Assembly: GCA_014360645.1 (NCBI GenBank) | Contig: JACIXD010000008.1 | Location: 62,001 to 126,000, forward strand | Direction of reading: 5' to 3' | Length of the DNA stretch: 64,000 nucleotides | DNA from: Actinomycetota bacterium | Lineage (GTDB): Bacteria > Actinomycetota > Geothermincolia > Geothermincolales > RBG-13-55-18 | Shown: positions 58,346-64,000 of the stretch, piece after piece | Layout: each line of letters begins with the position of its first letter | Numbering within the stretch: position 1 is the first letter of the stretch | Made by a program: the position numbers and the translations under genes | Notes under the pieces: model-generated | Database searches by the model: none | What the model was told of the DNA's origin: nothing | What the model saw: the letters and a program-made list of their open reading frames with translations, nothing else

Positions 58346-59104
58346 TTGGCCGACCGCAAGATGACCATCATCGAGCACCTCGAGGAACTGAGGAGGCGCA
58401 TCATCGTCATGCTTCTGTCCCTCGGGGTGGCGGTATGCGTGGGTTACGTTTTTTCCTGGGACATCCTCGATTTCCTCAAGCGGCCGGCCGCCAGGGCGGA
58501 CATCCCCCTGAACCTTTACTACCAGACGGTGCTCGAACCCTTCATGGTGCGCTTCAGGATCGCCATGTACGCGGCCATCGTGCTGGCGCTTCCCGTCATC
58601 CTCTACGAGGTCATCGCCTACATCGCCCCGGCGCTGCGCAAGCGCGAGAAGCGCTTCATGTACACCGCCCTTTTCTTCATCATCGTCTTCTTCCTGGGCG
58701 GAGTGGCCTTCTGTTATGCGTATATCCTTCCCGTGGGCCTGAAGTGGCTGACGGGCCAGGCAGGAGGGAGGATAAGCCCGGTGCTCATGGCGGGCCAGTA
58801 CATCAGCCTGGTGGCGCTGCTCATGGTGGCGGTGGGCCTATCCTTCGAGACTCCCCTGGTGGTGTGGTTGGTGGTGCGCCTGGGGATCGTCACCCCGCAG
58901 AGGTTGCACAAGAACTGGCGTTACGCGGTGGTCATCATCCTCTGCTTCGCCGCCCTCATCACCCCCGACTGGAACCCCATCACCATGATGCTGGTGGCGG
59001 TGCCCATGTTCTTCCTCTACGAGGGGAGTATACTCTTCGCCATGCTGGGAAGGAGGGGGGCAGAGAGACGGAAGGAGGCCCTGGAGGAGGAGTCGGAGGA
59101 GTAA
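58346..59104 (+). CDS. tatC: Tat translocase subunit TatC
   Basis: The 252-residue six-helix membrane protein has the TatC hallmarks: I-I-E-H-L-E-E-L-R-R-R near the start, P-x-x-x-Y-E-V-I-A-Y-I-A-P-A-L in the middle and T-P-D-W-N-P-I-T-M near the end. It is the receptor for twin-arginine signal peptides. TTG 58346 has GGAGG six bases upstream, and an ATG 12 bases later is possible. No TatB is seen, so this is probably a two-component TatAC system. Confidence 0.92.
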   Translation: MADRKMTIIEHLEELRRRIIVMLLSLGVAVCVGYVFSWDILDFLKRPAARADIPLNLYYQTVLEPFMVRFRIAMYAAIVLALPVILYEVIAYIAPALRKREKRFMYTALFFIIVFFLGGVAFCYAYILPVGLKWLTGQAGGRISPVLMAGQYISLVALLMVAVGLSFETPLVVWLVVRLGIVTPQRLHKNWRYAVVIILCFAALITPDWNPITMMLVAVPMFFLYEGSILFAMLGRRGAERRKEALEEESEE

Positions 59105-59207: not shown

Positions 59208-60101
59208 ATCGGCGATTTCAACCTGAAGCAGCGCAAGATCAACAAGAGCCTGGTGACCCGCACGGCCAGGTCGTACGTGGCGTCAAATCCCCGGCTCAAG
59301 GGAGTGATGGGGCTGTACCGCGAGGTGTTCTCGGTGCAGCGCAGGCTCTCGCAGCGCATACCCGACCGGCTGCCCCACCTCGAGGAACAGCAGGCGCACA
59401 AGCTCATCGAGGAAGGCAAGCCGCTCATCGAGACCGGGGAGATGGCCGTGGATGTCGCCCTGGCGGAGGAGCTGATGAGGGAACTGGCGGAGGTGCTGAG
59501 GAAAAAGAGCGAGTCCTCCCTCGAGAACCTGGACGCGTTCCTCTCCCGCGAGCTGGACGGCGAGGGGCTTCGCGCTCTCATCGAGGCCTTCCTGGAGCGT
59601 GACGACGAGGAGTTCCTGCGTCTGGCGGAGGGCTATTCGCTGGAGCCCGCGGTGCTCTACATGCTGGTGCATATGACCATGGCGCCGTTTTTCTGGAAGG
59701 CAGCGGGCGCCATGGCCCGCAAAGCCGACCTCGACCAGGTTCCGAGGGGACGGTGCCCGGTATGCGGCGACCTGCCCATCATGGGTTTCCTGCGCTCGCA
59801 GGACGGCCTGCGGGTCCTGGAATGTTCCCTGTGCGGGTCGCGCTGGGGGATCCCGCGCATCATGTGCCCCTTCTGCATGAACATCGACCAGGGAAAGCTG
59901 AAGTACATCTTCGTGGAGGGCGACGACAGGAAAAGGGCATACCTTTGCGAGAAGTGCGGCAGGTACCTCAAGGTGTCCACGGCGCCGGGAGAGCGGGACG
60001 AGGAGTTCGTCATCCCCCTCGAGGACCTCGCCACCGCTCATCTAGACCTGGCGGCGGAGGAAAAGGGTTACGAGCGCGGCTGCCGCACGGTGTTTTCTTG
60101 A
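59208..60101 (+). CDS. fdhE: formate dehydrogenase accessory protein FdhE, apparent AUC start
   Basis: The ~297-residue protein has the FdhE rubredoxin-like zinc sites: C-P-V-C-G, C-S-L-C-G-S-R-W, C-P-F-C and C-E-K-C-G. FdhE is needed for maturation and Tat-dependent assembly of formate dehydrogenases. The coding frame is open back to ATC 59208, nine bases after AAGGAGG at 59192-59198; a stop lies just before it. The first canonical start is GTG 59253, which lacks a ribosome site. The 15 residues between (I-G-D-F-N-L-K-Q-R-K-I-N-K-S-L) look coding, so either AUC is used or an ATG was lost. Confidence 0.85.
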   Translation: MGDFNLKQRKINKSLVTRTARSYVASNPRLKGVMGLYREVFSVQRRLSQRIPDRLPHLEEQQAHKLIEEGKPLIETGEMAVDVALAEELMRELAEVLRKKSESSLENLDAFLSRELDGEGLRALIEAFLERDDEEFLRLAEGYSLEPAVLYMLVHMTMAPFFWKAAGAMARKADLDQVPRGRCPVCGDLPIMGFLRSQDGLRVLECSLCGSRWGIPRIMCPFCMNIDQGKLKYIFVEGDDRKRAYLCEKCGRYLKVSTAPGERDEEFVIPLEDLATAHLDLAAEEKGYERGCRTVFS

Positions 60102-60168
60102 GATCCAAAAGAGCAACCGCATCTCGTGCCGCTGCCCGCGGGCCGCGCGCTCCGGTTGCGGAAACAAG

Positions 60169-60198
60169 TTGCCTTACGGTGAAATTCGATAGTATAAT
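60169..60198 (+). promoter_or_regulatory. promoter ahead of the formate dehydrogenase gene
   Basis: TTGCCT (60169-60174), 18 bases, TATAAT (60193-60198). The transcript would begin near 60205 and have a leader of about 310 bases before the ATG at 60517. Confidence 0.6.
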
Positions 60199-60204
60199 GC
60201 TCCC

Positions 60205-60516
60205 GATTTGATGTCAGTTTGATCGAGGGTCATGCCGAGGGCCCGGAAGGGCCGGGATCGAACGGCAAGGGAGGTCTGAAAAGCCAGGCCAGTGCTGCAT
60301 GTATGTCCTGGCGGGTGGATCATAGAGGTTAAGCGCCGTTCCAGACGGTGATAAACCGCTTTTATCCGTTCCTTGAAAATCTGGTGGGCTTCCGGCGCGC
60401 ATGTGGGGAAATCAAATCCCGTGCGGGTTTTATATATATATATGCGTAATGCACAGTATGCAGTATAGTCGCTTTTTTGGAGGTACAGGATTCGACCTAG
60501 GAAAGTGGGGGGAAGT
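60205..60516 (+). ncRNA. structured leader of the formate dehydrogenase mRNA, candidate riboswitch
   Basis: The leader contains GGCCC-GGAA-GGGCC (60240-60253, a five-bp stem capped by a GNRA-type tetraloop) and GCCAGG/CCTGGC (60283-60288 with 60307-60312). CGG-ATAAA pairs with TTTAT-CCG in the 60345-60375 region. CCC-GTGC-GGG followed by TTTTATAT near 60417-60435 resembles a short attenuator. A molybdenum- or tungsten-cofactor element would be logical before a molybdoenzyme, but I cannot match the known Moco consensus by eye. Confidence 0.4.
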
Positions 60517-63500
60517 ATGGAACTTTCGCGAAGAAGTTTCCTCAAGCTGTCGGGCGCCGGCATAGGCGTCACCGCCCTCGCCCAGCTCGGGTTCTCCACC
60601 ACCGCCCTCGCCGCTGCCGAGGAGCTTCGCATCAGCGAGGCCAGCGAGAGCACCACGGTATGCCCCTACTGCTCCGTGGGCTGCTCCGCCATCGTCAGCG
60701 TGAAGGATGGCAAGGTGGTGGGCTTGGAGGGCCTTCCAGACAGCCCCGTGAACCGGGCGAGCCTCTGCTCCAAGGGGCAGTCCATCTACCAGATCGCCAA
60801 CAACGACCGCCGGCTCACCAAGGTGCGCTACCGCGCCCCCGGGGCCACGGACTGGGAGGAGAAGACCTGGGAGGAGGCCATCCCCAGGATTGCCCGCCTC
60901 ATCAAGGACACCCGAGACGCCACCTTCGTGGAGACGGAGGAGGTGGACGGGAACAAGGTCACGGTGAACCGCTGCGAGGGCATCGCCCAGCTGGGAGGGG
61001 CAGCCCTGGACAACGAGGAATGCTACCTGGCCGTCAAGTTCGCCCGCGGCCTCGGCCTGGTGTACATCGAACACCAGGCCCGTATATGACACTCGGCCAC
61101 AGTCGCCGGTCTCGGCGGCACGTACGGCCGGGGAGCCATGACCAACCACTACATCGACCTCAAGAACGCCGACGTTTTCATGATCTGCGGCGCTAACCCC
61201 AGCGAGAACCATCCCGTCTCTTGGCGGTGGATGGAAAAGGCTAGGGAGGAGCGCGACGCCAAGATCATCGTGGTGGACCCGCGCTTCACCCGCTCCGCGG
61301 CGCGCGCGGACCTCTTCTCCTTCATCCGCCCCGGCACCGACATCGCCTTCTTCGGGGCGCTGATCAAGTACGCCATCGACAAGAACTACATCAACTGGGA
61401 GTACGTGCAGAACTACACCAACGCCCCCATCCTGGTCAACCCGGACTTCAAGGGGCCCGGTGAGCTGGACGGCTACTTCAGCGGCTACGACAAGGAGAAG
61501 AGGAAGTACGACACCAAGACCTGGACCTACCAGGCCGGCCCCGACGGCAACCCCGTCCGGGTACAGCTCATCCCCATCGCCGAGGACCCGACCTTCCCAG
61601 GCAGGGGGGTGCCCACCGGCCCCAAGGACTCCAACGGGAACTACATCCCCAACGACGACGCGGCCATCGCGGGCTCCGTTTTCGCCAAGCTCAAGGAGCA
61701 CTTCTCCCGCTACACCTACGACGGGCCCGACAGCGTGGTGGCCAAGGTCTGCGGCATGGATCCCGCCAAGTTCAAGGAGATCGCCGAGTGCTACTGCGGC
61801 ATCACCTGCAAACGGGAGAAGAGCGGCAACCTCATGTACGCCATGGGGCTGACGCAGTTCACCTTCGGGACGGAGAAGATACGCACCTTCGCCATCCTGC
61901 AGGCGCTGCTCGGCAACACCGGCATGCCCGGCGGGGGCATCAACGCCCTGCGCGGGGAGTCCAACGTCCAGGGCTCCACGGACTTCGCGCTCCTCTCCCA
62001 CATCCTCTGCGGGTATATGACCGTGCCCAACTCGAGCGACCACCCCGACCGCGGCAAGTACCTGGAGAAGACAACCCCCAAGGTGGGCATCTGGACCTGG
62101 CAGCCCCGCTTCTTCAACAGCTACCTCATGGCCTACTACGGCCCCTATGCCAAAAAGGAGGGGCTGGACAAGGCCTACGAACTGCATCCCAAGGTGAAGA
62201 AGGGCAAGAACTACACCCATATCGCGCTCTTCGAGGACATGTACGCGGGCATCATCAAGGGCCTCATCGCCTGGGGGCAGAACCCGGGGGTCGGTGGACC
62301 CAACTGCAACCTGGAGTACGCCGCCATGGACAAGCTGGACTGGCTGGTGGCCGCGGACCTCTGGGACACCGATAGCATGAACTTCTGGCGCCGCCCCGGG
62401 GCCGACCCCAAGGCCATCCAGACCGAGGTGTGGGCGCTTCCCGCCGCCTCCTCGGTGGAGAAGCCGGGGTCGGTCTCCAACTCCGGAAGGATGGCCCAGT
62501 ACCGTTGGAAGGCGGTGGAGCCCCCCGGGGACGCCATGCCCGACGCCTTCATGATCCACCAGATCATGAAGGCGGTAAAGGAGCTCTACCGCGCCGAGGG
62601 AGGCAAGGGCAAGGAGAGCATATCCGAGCTCTTCTGGGCCTACGACGAGGACGAGCACGGCGATCCCGACCTGGACCAGGTGCAGATGGAGATCAGCGGA
62701 TTCACCTGGCCTGAGGGCGAGTTCAGCTGGGACAAGGCCTTCGAGAAGCCGGTCTTCGGCTTCGGATCCCTAAAAGACGACGGCTCCACCGCCTCCGGCA
62801 ATTGGATCTACTGCGGGCAGTGGGCGAGCGACGCCGACGTGGAGACCGCGGCCAAGATCCTGGGCATCGACGGCCAGCTCCCCAAAGGGGATGATGGCAA
62901 GGTCAAGATACCCCGCTCCAAGCAGGCCAAGGAGTGGAACGGCATTCCCTTCAACAAAGGGCAGTGGCACTTCCAGAAGACCCCCGTCTACTGGCTGGGC
63001 AAGGACGGGCAGACCATCTACACCGACAAGGACAGCGCCCCCGCCGACGCCAGGAAGATCAACGTGGGCACCTACCCGGTGTGGGCCTGGGCTTGGCCCC
63101 TCAACCGGCGCATCATCTACAACCGCAATTCGGTTGACTGGTCGGGCAAGCCCTTCGCCCCGGACAAGGCCCTCTTCACCTTCAAGGACGACGACAACCT
63201 GGGGATGAAGAACGACGTGCCCGACTTCTACACCCAGCCGAGCACCGACCCCGCTTTCCCGCCGGAGCTGGTGGGCAAGGCCACCATGCGCACGCGCTCG
63301 GGGGCCAACTCCTTCTTCATGAACCGAGAGCCGGGCGCCCTGGTGGCGCGCCTGTTCTCCAACTCCCTGGCGGAGGGCCCCTTCCCCGAGCACTACGAGC
63401 CCCGAGAGAGCCCGGTCAAAAACATGCTCTCCAGCGTGCAGAACAACCCGGCCATCGTGCTGGAATGGCCCTCGGCCAAGGAGGAGCCGGAGAAGTGGGG

Positions 63501-63963
63501 CTTCGCCGAGGTAGGCGATCCCAGGTACCCCTACGTGTGCACCACCTATCGGGTCACCGAGCACTGGCAGGCGGGCCAGATGACCCGCAACAACTCCTGG
63601 CTGTGTGAGGCCATGCCCGAGAACTTCATCGAGATCTCGGTGGAGCTCGCAGATGAGCTGGGGATCAAGAAGGGCGATCTGGTGGAGCTGGAGAGCGTGC
63701 GTGGAAAGGTGCAGGGGGTGGCGGTGGTGACCACCCGACTGAAGCCCCTGGAGATCGGGGACAACGGCAGCACCAGGAAGGTGCACGTGGTGGGGATGAC
63801 CTGGCACTACGGGTTCATCGGCCTGGCCACCGGCGGCCCGGAGAGAAACGGCATCTCCAAGAAGAACTACGCCGCCAACCAGCTAACCCCCCACGTGGGC
63901 GATCCCAACACCACCATCCCCGAGTACAAGGCGTTCCTCGTGAACCTGAGGAAGGTGAAGTGA
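60517..63963 (+). CDS. fdnG: selenocysteine formate dehydrogenase, catalytic subunit (Tat-exported)
   Basis: The frame runs through TGA 61087-61089 as selenocysteine (residue 191): upstream I-E-H-Q-A-R-I, downstream H-S-A-T-V-A-G-L-G-G-T-Y-G-R-G-A-M-T-N-H matches FdnG (N-Q-A-R-V-U-H-G-P-T-V-A-S-L). The 1148-residue protein starts with a twin-arginine signal (S-R-R-S-F-L-K, cleavage near A-L-A-A-A). It has the [4Fe-4S] site C49, C52, C56, C84 with K86, and the molybdopterin domains. ATG 60517 has GGGGGGA upstream; GTG 60505 is a weaker option. It oxidises formate to CO2 outside the membrane, passing electrons to an Fe-S subunit encoded next. Confidence 0.93.
61087..61119 (+). promoter_or_regulatory. 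bacterial SECIS element
   Basis: Directly after the UGA, GTCGCC (61102-61107) pairs with GGCGGC (61114-61119), closing a loop GGTCTC (61108-61113). The loop GGUCU starts 19 bases after the UGA, the same spacing and loop sequence as I recall for the E. coli fdhF SECIS bound by SelB. Confidence 0.85.
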
Positions 63964-63964
63964 T

Positions 63965-64000
63965 ATGGCTAACCCGACGGACAAGGCGATCCTCTTCGAC
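63965..64000 (+). CDS. start of probable formate dehydrogenase Fe-S subunit, 3'-truncated
   Basis: An ATG lies one base after the TGA stop of the formate dehydrogenase. The 12 visible codons give M-A-N-P-T-D-K-A-I-L-F-D, which resembles the start of four-cluster ferredoxin subunits (A-I-L-F-D followed by C-I-G-C). The rest is outside the window, so the family call is by context. Confidence 0.5.
   Translation, partial: MANPTDKAILFD

Follow-up and report, generated by a model that had tools for sequence, protein, structure and literature searches.

A predicted selenocysteine-containing formate dehydrogenase encoded across an in-frame UGA in an uncultured actinobacterium

Two reading frames or one

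Do two neighbouring open reading frames in the same phase, separated by a single TGA, stand for a broken gene or for one gene whose UGA is read as selenocysteine (Sec)? The question is raised by a locus in a window of 64,000 nucleotides (contig C8:62001-126000), the whole stretch of DNA analyzed here, which belongs to a genome of 3.38 Mb in 34 contigs that is 98% complete and counts MAGs of the uncultured Actinomycetota Candidatus Solincola and Geothermincola among its nearest named relatives. The upstream frame (60505/60517-61089) encodes 190 amino acids counted from the ATG at 60517 and the downstream frame (61138-63963) encodes 941. Exactly as a preliminary description of the locus had stated, they are separated by the TGA at 61087-61089 and 48 stop-free bases (61090-61137) that lead to the next ATG.

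Read through, both parts form a single frame of 1148 residues on the forward strand (60517-63963), named fdhA, in which the TGA at residue 191 is the sole interruption. GC3 remains high throughout, at 0.89 ahead of the TGA, 0.81 across the 16 bridging codons and 0.93 beyond them, so that the coding character is continuous. The start region with the ATG at 60517 is kept in relatives, and the frame has its own terminator, the TGA at 63961-63963, two bases ahead of the fdhB start codon. The read-through product scores 1034.5 bits against TIGR01553 (FDH-N alpha), over the curated cut-off of 814.2. Among solved structures it best matches 1h0h, the formate dehydrogenase of Desulfovibrio gigas (E=1.3e-242); further formate dehydrogenases with Sec and Escherichia coli FdnG (1kqf) come next, and these alignments span most of the length of FdhA. 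An N-terminal [4Fe-4S]-binding Molybdop_Fe4S4 domain is encoded at 60652-60804 on the same strand (G000:C8:122652-122804; PF04879, 66 bits, cut-off 22.7), and the sequence SRRSFLK at the N-terminus resembles a twin-arginine signal. Frame, family model and structural match together describe the product of fdhA as the catalytic subunit of a Mo/W formate dehydrogenase that has a predicted Sec at position 191 and a twin-arginine signal. Reading it as a single gene corrects the split in two that is expected from automated annotation.

The UGA at the active site

The UGA codon (61087-61089, forward strand; EHQARI-U-HSATV) aligns to the Sec (X) of 1h0h and, in E. coli fdnG, to codon 196, an in-frame TGA. 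It matches the catalytic Sec position with a histidine next to it, and the surroundings read EHQARI-U-HSATVAGLGGTYGRGAMTN in FdhA compared to DNQARV-U-HGPTVASLAPTFGRGAMTN in E. coli FdnG. The bridging peptide had earlier been taken for a formate dehydrogenase active site around Sec, and both alignments agree; the likeness to FdnG that had been proposed holds for the equivalent Sec site, but the protein as a whole is closer to D. gigas FdhA. The proline of the motif U-H-x-P, tabulated in PMC13188914, is replaced in FdhA, which has U-H-S-A. Since the solved D. gigas enzyme likewise has HSA, the tabulated form of the motif cannot be taken as strictly defining. Among the 64 homologues that cover the site, 57 carry TGA and seven a cysteine codon (TGC or TGT).

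A predicted SECIS hairpin behind the UGA

At -20.5 kcal/mol, positions 61087-61130 fold into an upper stem of 7 bp that is capped by a 4-nt GUCU loop. The bacterial SECIS hairpin assigned here by folding, a recoding null, covariation and the bSECIS model extends over 61090-61130 on the forward strand, with an apical stem formed by 61102-61108 and 61113-61119 and the loop at 61109-61112. The hairpin with a GGUCU spaced by 19 bases that had been announced in the preliminary description is thus real, and 19 nt do separate the UGA from the unpaired loop, but GGUCU itself begins at 61108, which is 18 bases downstream of the UGA. The bSECIS model (PMC13188914) allows a loop of 3-9 nt, an upper stem of 4-16 bp, a G within the first two loop positions, a spacing of 16-37 nt and a minimum free energy of at most -7.5. 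A comparison with these rules, which had been proposed as a check, found the fdhA hairpin within every limit (4 nt GUCU, 7 bp, G first, 19 nt, -20.5 kcal/mol). In E. coli fdnG, a GTCT lies at equal distance from the TGA, so that the loop register is common to both genes. Rfam searches at gathering scores gave no match anywhere in the window. Against the Sec reading, U17 is predicted to pair with G as a wobble instead of being bulged.

Because the hairpin region also codes for protein, synonymous recodings of its peptide with the codon usage of fdhA itself served as the null. Of the recodings, 0.26% contained the SECIS motif and 1.2% folded with the same energy or a lower one; the glycine codon of the loop, GGT, is used in just 2/101 cases elsewhere in fdhA. 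Among six distinct sequences from nine class members, all five pairs examined for covariation are kept and two of the pairs show compensatory changes, which occur in two of the six. A further set of 26 sequences has 91% of cells paired, compared to 27-52% when the partner is slid. Both sequence sets are small or related, and the covariation of the stem is therefore supporting and not conclusive.

Selenocysteine and cysteine among relatives

The closest cysteine orthologue (L030), from the same class, is 70% identical to FdhA, has C at position 191 in a continuous frame and has lost the GGTCT loop. In its genome no tRNA-Sec over cut-off, no selB over cut-off and no true selD were found, absences that are uncertain at a completeness of about 82%. 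In this closest cysteine relative, Sec decoding appears to be absent in step with Cys at site 191. More broadly, tRNA-Sec is present in 9/9 TGA relatives tested, and selB in all nine TGA genomes (the source genome and eight relatives) versus three of seven Cys genomes, a difference (one-sided Fisher p=0.019) that is merely indicative since the tested genomes are incomplete and related, with no correction for relatedness. The class thus offers a natural Sec/Cys pair for the study of selenocysteine loss. In a separate homologue (L078:627-671), whose genome has selB, the Sec site reads TGC (Cys) although the SECIS-like GGTCT hairpin is intact, possibly as the result of a recent Sec-to-Cys change.

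In bacterial selenoproteins, termination generally competes with Sec insertion at the UGA. This competition could be exploited by a selenium-controlled switch, with a 190-residue product as the intended outcome of selenium shortage and the full enzyme under all other conditions. Such a switch is nevertheless very improbable: the frame is continuous in the cysteine relative, and a 190-residue piece that ends inside the catalytic domain has no evident separate function.

The selenocysteine machinery and its tRNAs

Insertion of Sec at codon 191 requires a decoding apparatus, and its genes are clustered on the contig of fdhA, on the opposite strand, 7.7-13.3 kb downstream. These are selC for a tRNA-Sec with UCA anticodon (L021:13627-13722, 81.8 bits), selB (L021:14016-15923; TIGR00475, 379 bits), selA (L021:15943-17367; TIGR00474, 589.8 bits), yedF (L021:17481-18167) and selD with an in-frame TGA (L021:18249-19289, reverse strand; TIGR00476, 359 bits), the four protein genes all scoring over their curated cut-offs. 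The preliminary description had postulated SelA, SelB, SelC and SelD elsewhere in the lineage, and its reading would have fallen with a genome devoid of selB or selC; all four genes are encoded, and within a short distance. The pair of selB and selC constitutes the gene signature of Sec-decoding organisms (PMC1273633). Judged by gene content, the source genome belongs with the Sec-decoding organisms, with selA and selD present as well.

A further tRNA resembling tRNA-Sec (L022:164-252; G000:C16:27563-27650) is kept in several relatives (L136-L140). By inspection it has an 8-bp acceptor, a 5-bp T stem, a long variable arm and U73, and its anticodon, GCA, makes it a Cys tRNA. For the same reason it was rejected as a second Sec tRNA, and a canonical tRNA-Cys at L165:1498-1571 excludes it as the only Cys tRNA. 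It is similar to the selC* tRNA-Cys class (PMC7609411) but is without the 51a bulge, and Actinobacteria are not among the phyla listed for that class in the same paper.

The existence of this second tRNA-Sec-like molecule could suggest a genome-wide reassignment of UGA, or its suppression by this or another tRNA, so that a different amino acid is inserted. This is highly implausible: the tRNA in question reads with GCA and not UCA, a genuine tRNA-Sec with UCA is encoded, fdhA itself uses a TGA as terminator just ahead of fdhB, and a conserved hairpin would be needless. Scarcely any weight attaches to a pseudogene or sequencing error, with the UGA a true stop and the halves mere remnants as the mechanical listing of exactly two ORFs might imply, given TGA at the equivalent codon of 57/64 homologues from many phyla, 1148 codons devoid of any other stop, strong coding character on both sides and the presence of the SECIS and the sel genes.

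Proposed decoding and further selenoproteins

Read-through homology, the conserved TGA, the hairpin, the sel genes and the co-occurrence of selB all support the Sec reading. As far as the sequence can tell, fdhA is almost certainly one gene for an exported Mo/W formate dehydrogenase in which the UGA at 61087-61089 is decoded as selenocysteine. Following the biochemistry described in PMC13188914, SelD would make selenophosphate, SelA would use it as donor in converting Ser-tRNA(Sec) to Sec-tRNA(Sec), and SelB with Sec-tRNA(Sec) would bind the predicted hairpin and bring Sec to the ribosome at the UGA. By known biochemistry, Sec191 would ligate the active-site Mo or W, the presumed site of formate oxidation or CO2 reduction. 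Export through Tat, by which FdhA would leave the cytoplasm together with its FdhB partner, is implied by its twin-arginine signal.

The earlier account of one Sec formate dehydrogenase is right for this locus, where there is one gene, but the genome encodes at least three. The second (L001, on G000:C7, reverse strand, TGA at 1266-1264) and the third (L003, on G000:C3, forward strand, TGA at 1903-1905) both have TGA at the Sec site and a GGTCT hairpin. An N-terminal ferredoxin/NuoG-like extension is observed in the third. The selD frame has TGA at the active-site Cys position (Sec16, IRLTHLSSKSG-U-AAK), and a hairpin with a GGA loop may form behind it. Among the 26 class genomes with a true selD match, 24 show the match with one in-frame TGA. 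A standard gene caller would place the selD start after the TGA. Three TGA formate dehydrogenases and a Sec-type SelD add up to at least four predicted selenoproteins in this genome. Formate dehydrogenase alpha and SelD are reported as the most widespread bacterial selenoproteins, and there are cases in other bacteria in which the sel genes and the gene for formate dehydrogenase alpha are neighbours or share one operon (PMC5029168). No paper on Sec in Geothermincola/Solincola-related Actinobacteria was found in a literature search; this lineage of uncultured Actinobacteria is now assigned a complete Sec system, together with four or more predicted selenoproteins.

An operon with RnfC and RnfD

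Upstream of fdhA on the same strand are tatC for a twin-arginine translocase subunit (58346-59104; TIGR00945, 176.8 bits, cut-off 132.7), whose linkage is conserved in close relatives, and a gene for an FdhE-like formate dehydrogenase accessory protein (59253-60101; TIGR01562, 75.8 bits, below the curated cut-off of 187.65), which adjoins fdhA in close class relatives. The gap in front of fdhA (60102-60516, 415 bases) contains a GC-rich inverted repeat. An RNA element in this gap was considered and dropped, as Rfam gave chance matches alone and what is conserved in relatives is mainly the ribosome-binding site with its surroundings, within the final ~30 bases.

Downstream, the order is fdhB, rnfC, rnfD, a P-type ATPase gene and apbE. 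The fdhB gene starts at 63965-64000 and runs past the window (L021:5966-6883, forward strand). It encodes an iron-sulphur subunit of 305 aa with one hydrophobic segment, at the C-terminus, and scores 194.4 bits with TIGR01582, below the cut-off of 334.7. Both rnfC (TIGR01945, 530.6 bits) and rnfD (TIGR01946, 257.2 bits) are over their cut-offs. No gene for the FdnI cytochrome b was found in the fdhA operon, which has RnfC and RnfD instead and is therefore not classed as FdnGHI. The order fdhA-fdhB-rnfC-rnfD is kept in close class relatives and in L039 and was not seen in Chloroflexi, Zixibacteria or deltaproteobacterial homologues. That the linked rnfCD might be the only ones of the genome is ruled out by a complete rnfCDGEAB on contig C13. 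The pair joined to fdhAB (L021:6876-9169) is a second one, separate from this operon (L208:3628-8857), and its RnfC shares 48% and its RnfD 37% identity with the C13 set.

It is conceivable, although rather doubtful, that the exported FdhAB of this class and its own RnfC-RnfD form one complex distinct from the complete Rnf. Such a complex would need no RnfA, B, E or G of its own to move electrons between formate on the outside and a carrier in the cytoplasm or membrane. In a search of titles and abstract openings, no description of an FdhAB-RnfCD complex was found. The conserved linkage could bear on the coupling of formate to energy conservation.

Comparison with known systems

The linkage of formate dehydrogenase alpha with sel genes and the selB/selC signature have been described (PMC5029168; PMC1273633), so the arrangement is already known in kind. 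By this measure, fdhA is a well-supported further case of a known selenoprotein arrangement in little-known uncultured Actinobacteria. D. gigas FdhAB (1h0h) shares with it the Sec position and the HSATVA context that follows, but its chain has 977 residues compared to 1148 in FdhA, and the gene described here shares its operon with rnfC and rnfD. E. coli FdnG of formate dehydrogenase N (1kqf) is 39% identical over 98%, with an equivalent Sec and the same SECIS loop register, whereas the present operon has RnfC and RnfD and is without the FdnI cytochrome b. With selA, selB, selC and selD all present and clustered, the genome resembles the bacterial Sec-decoding trait as it is known (cf. PMC5029168), the difference being its occurrence in Geothermincola/Solincola-related Actinobacteria.
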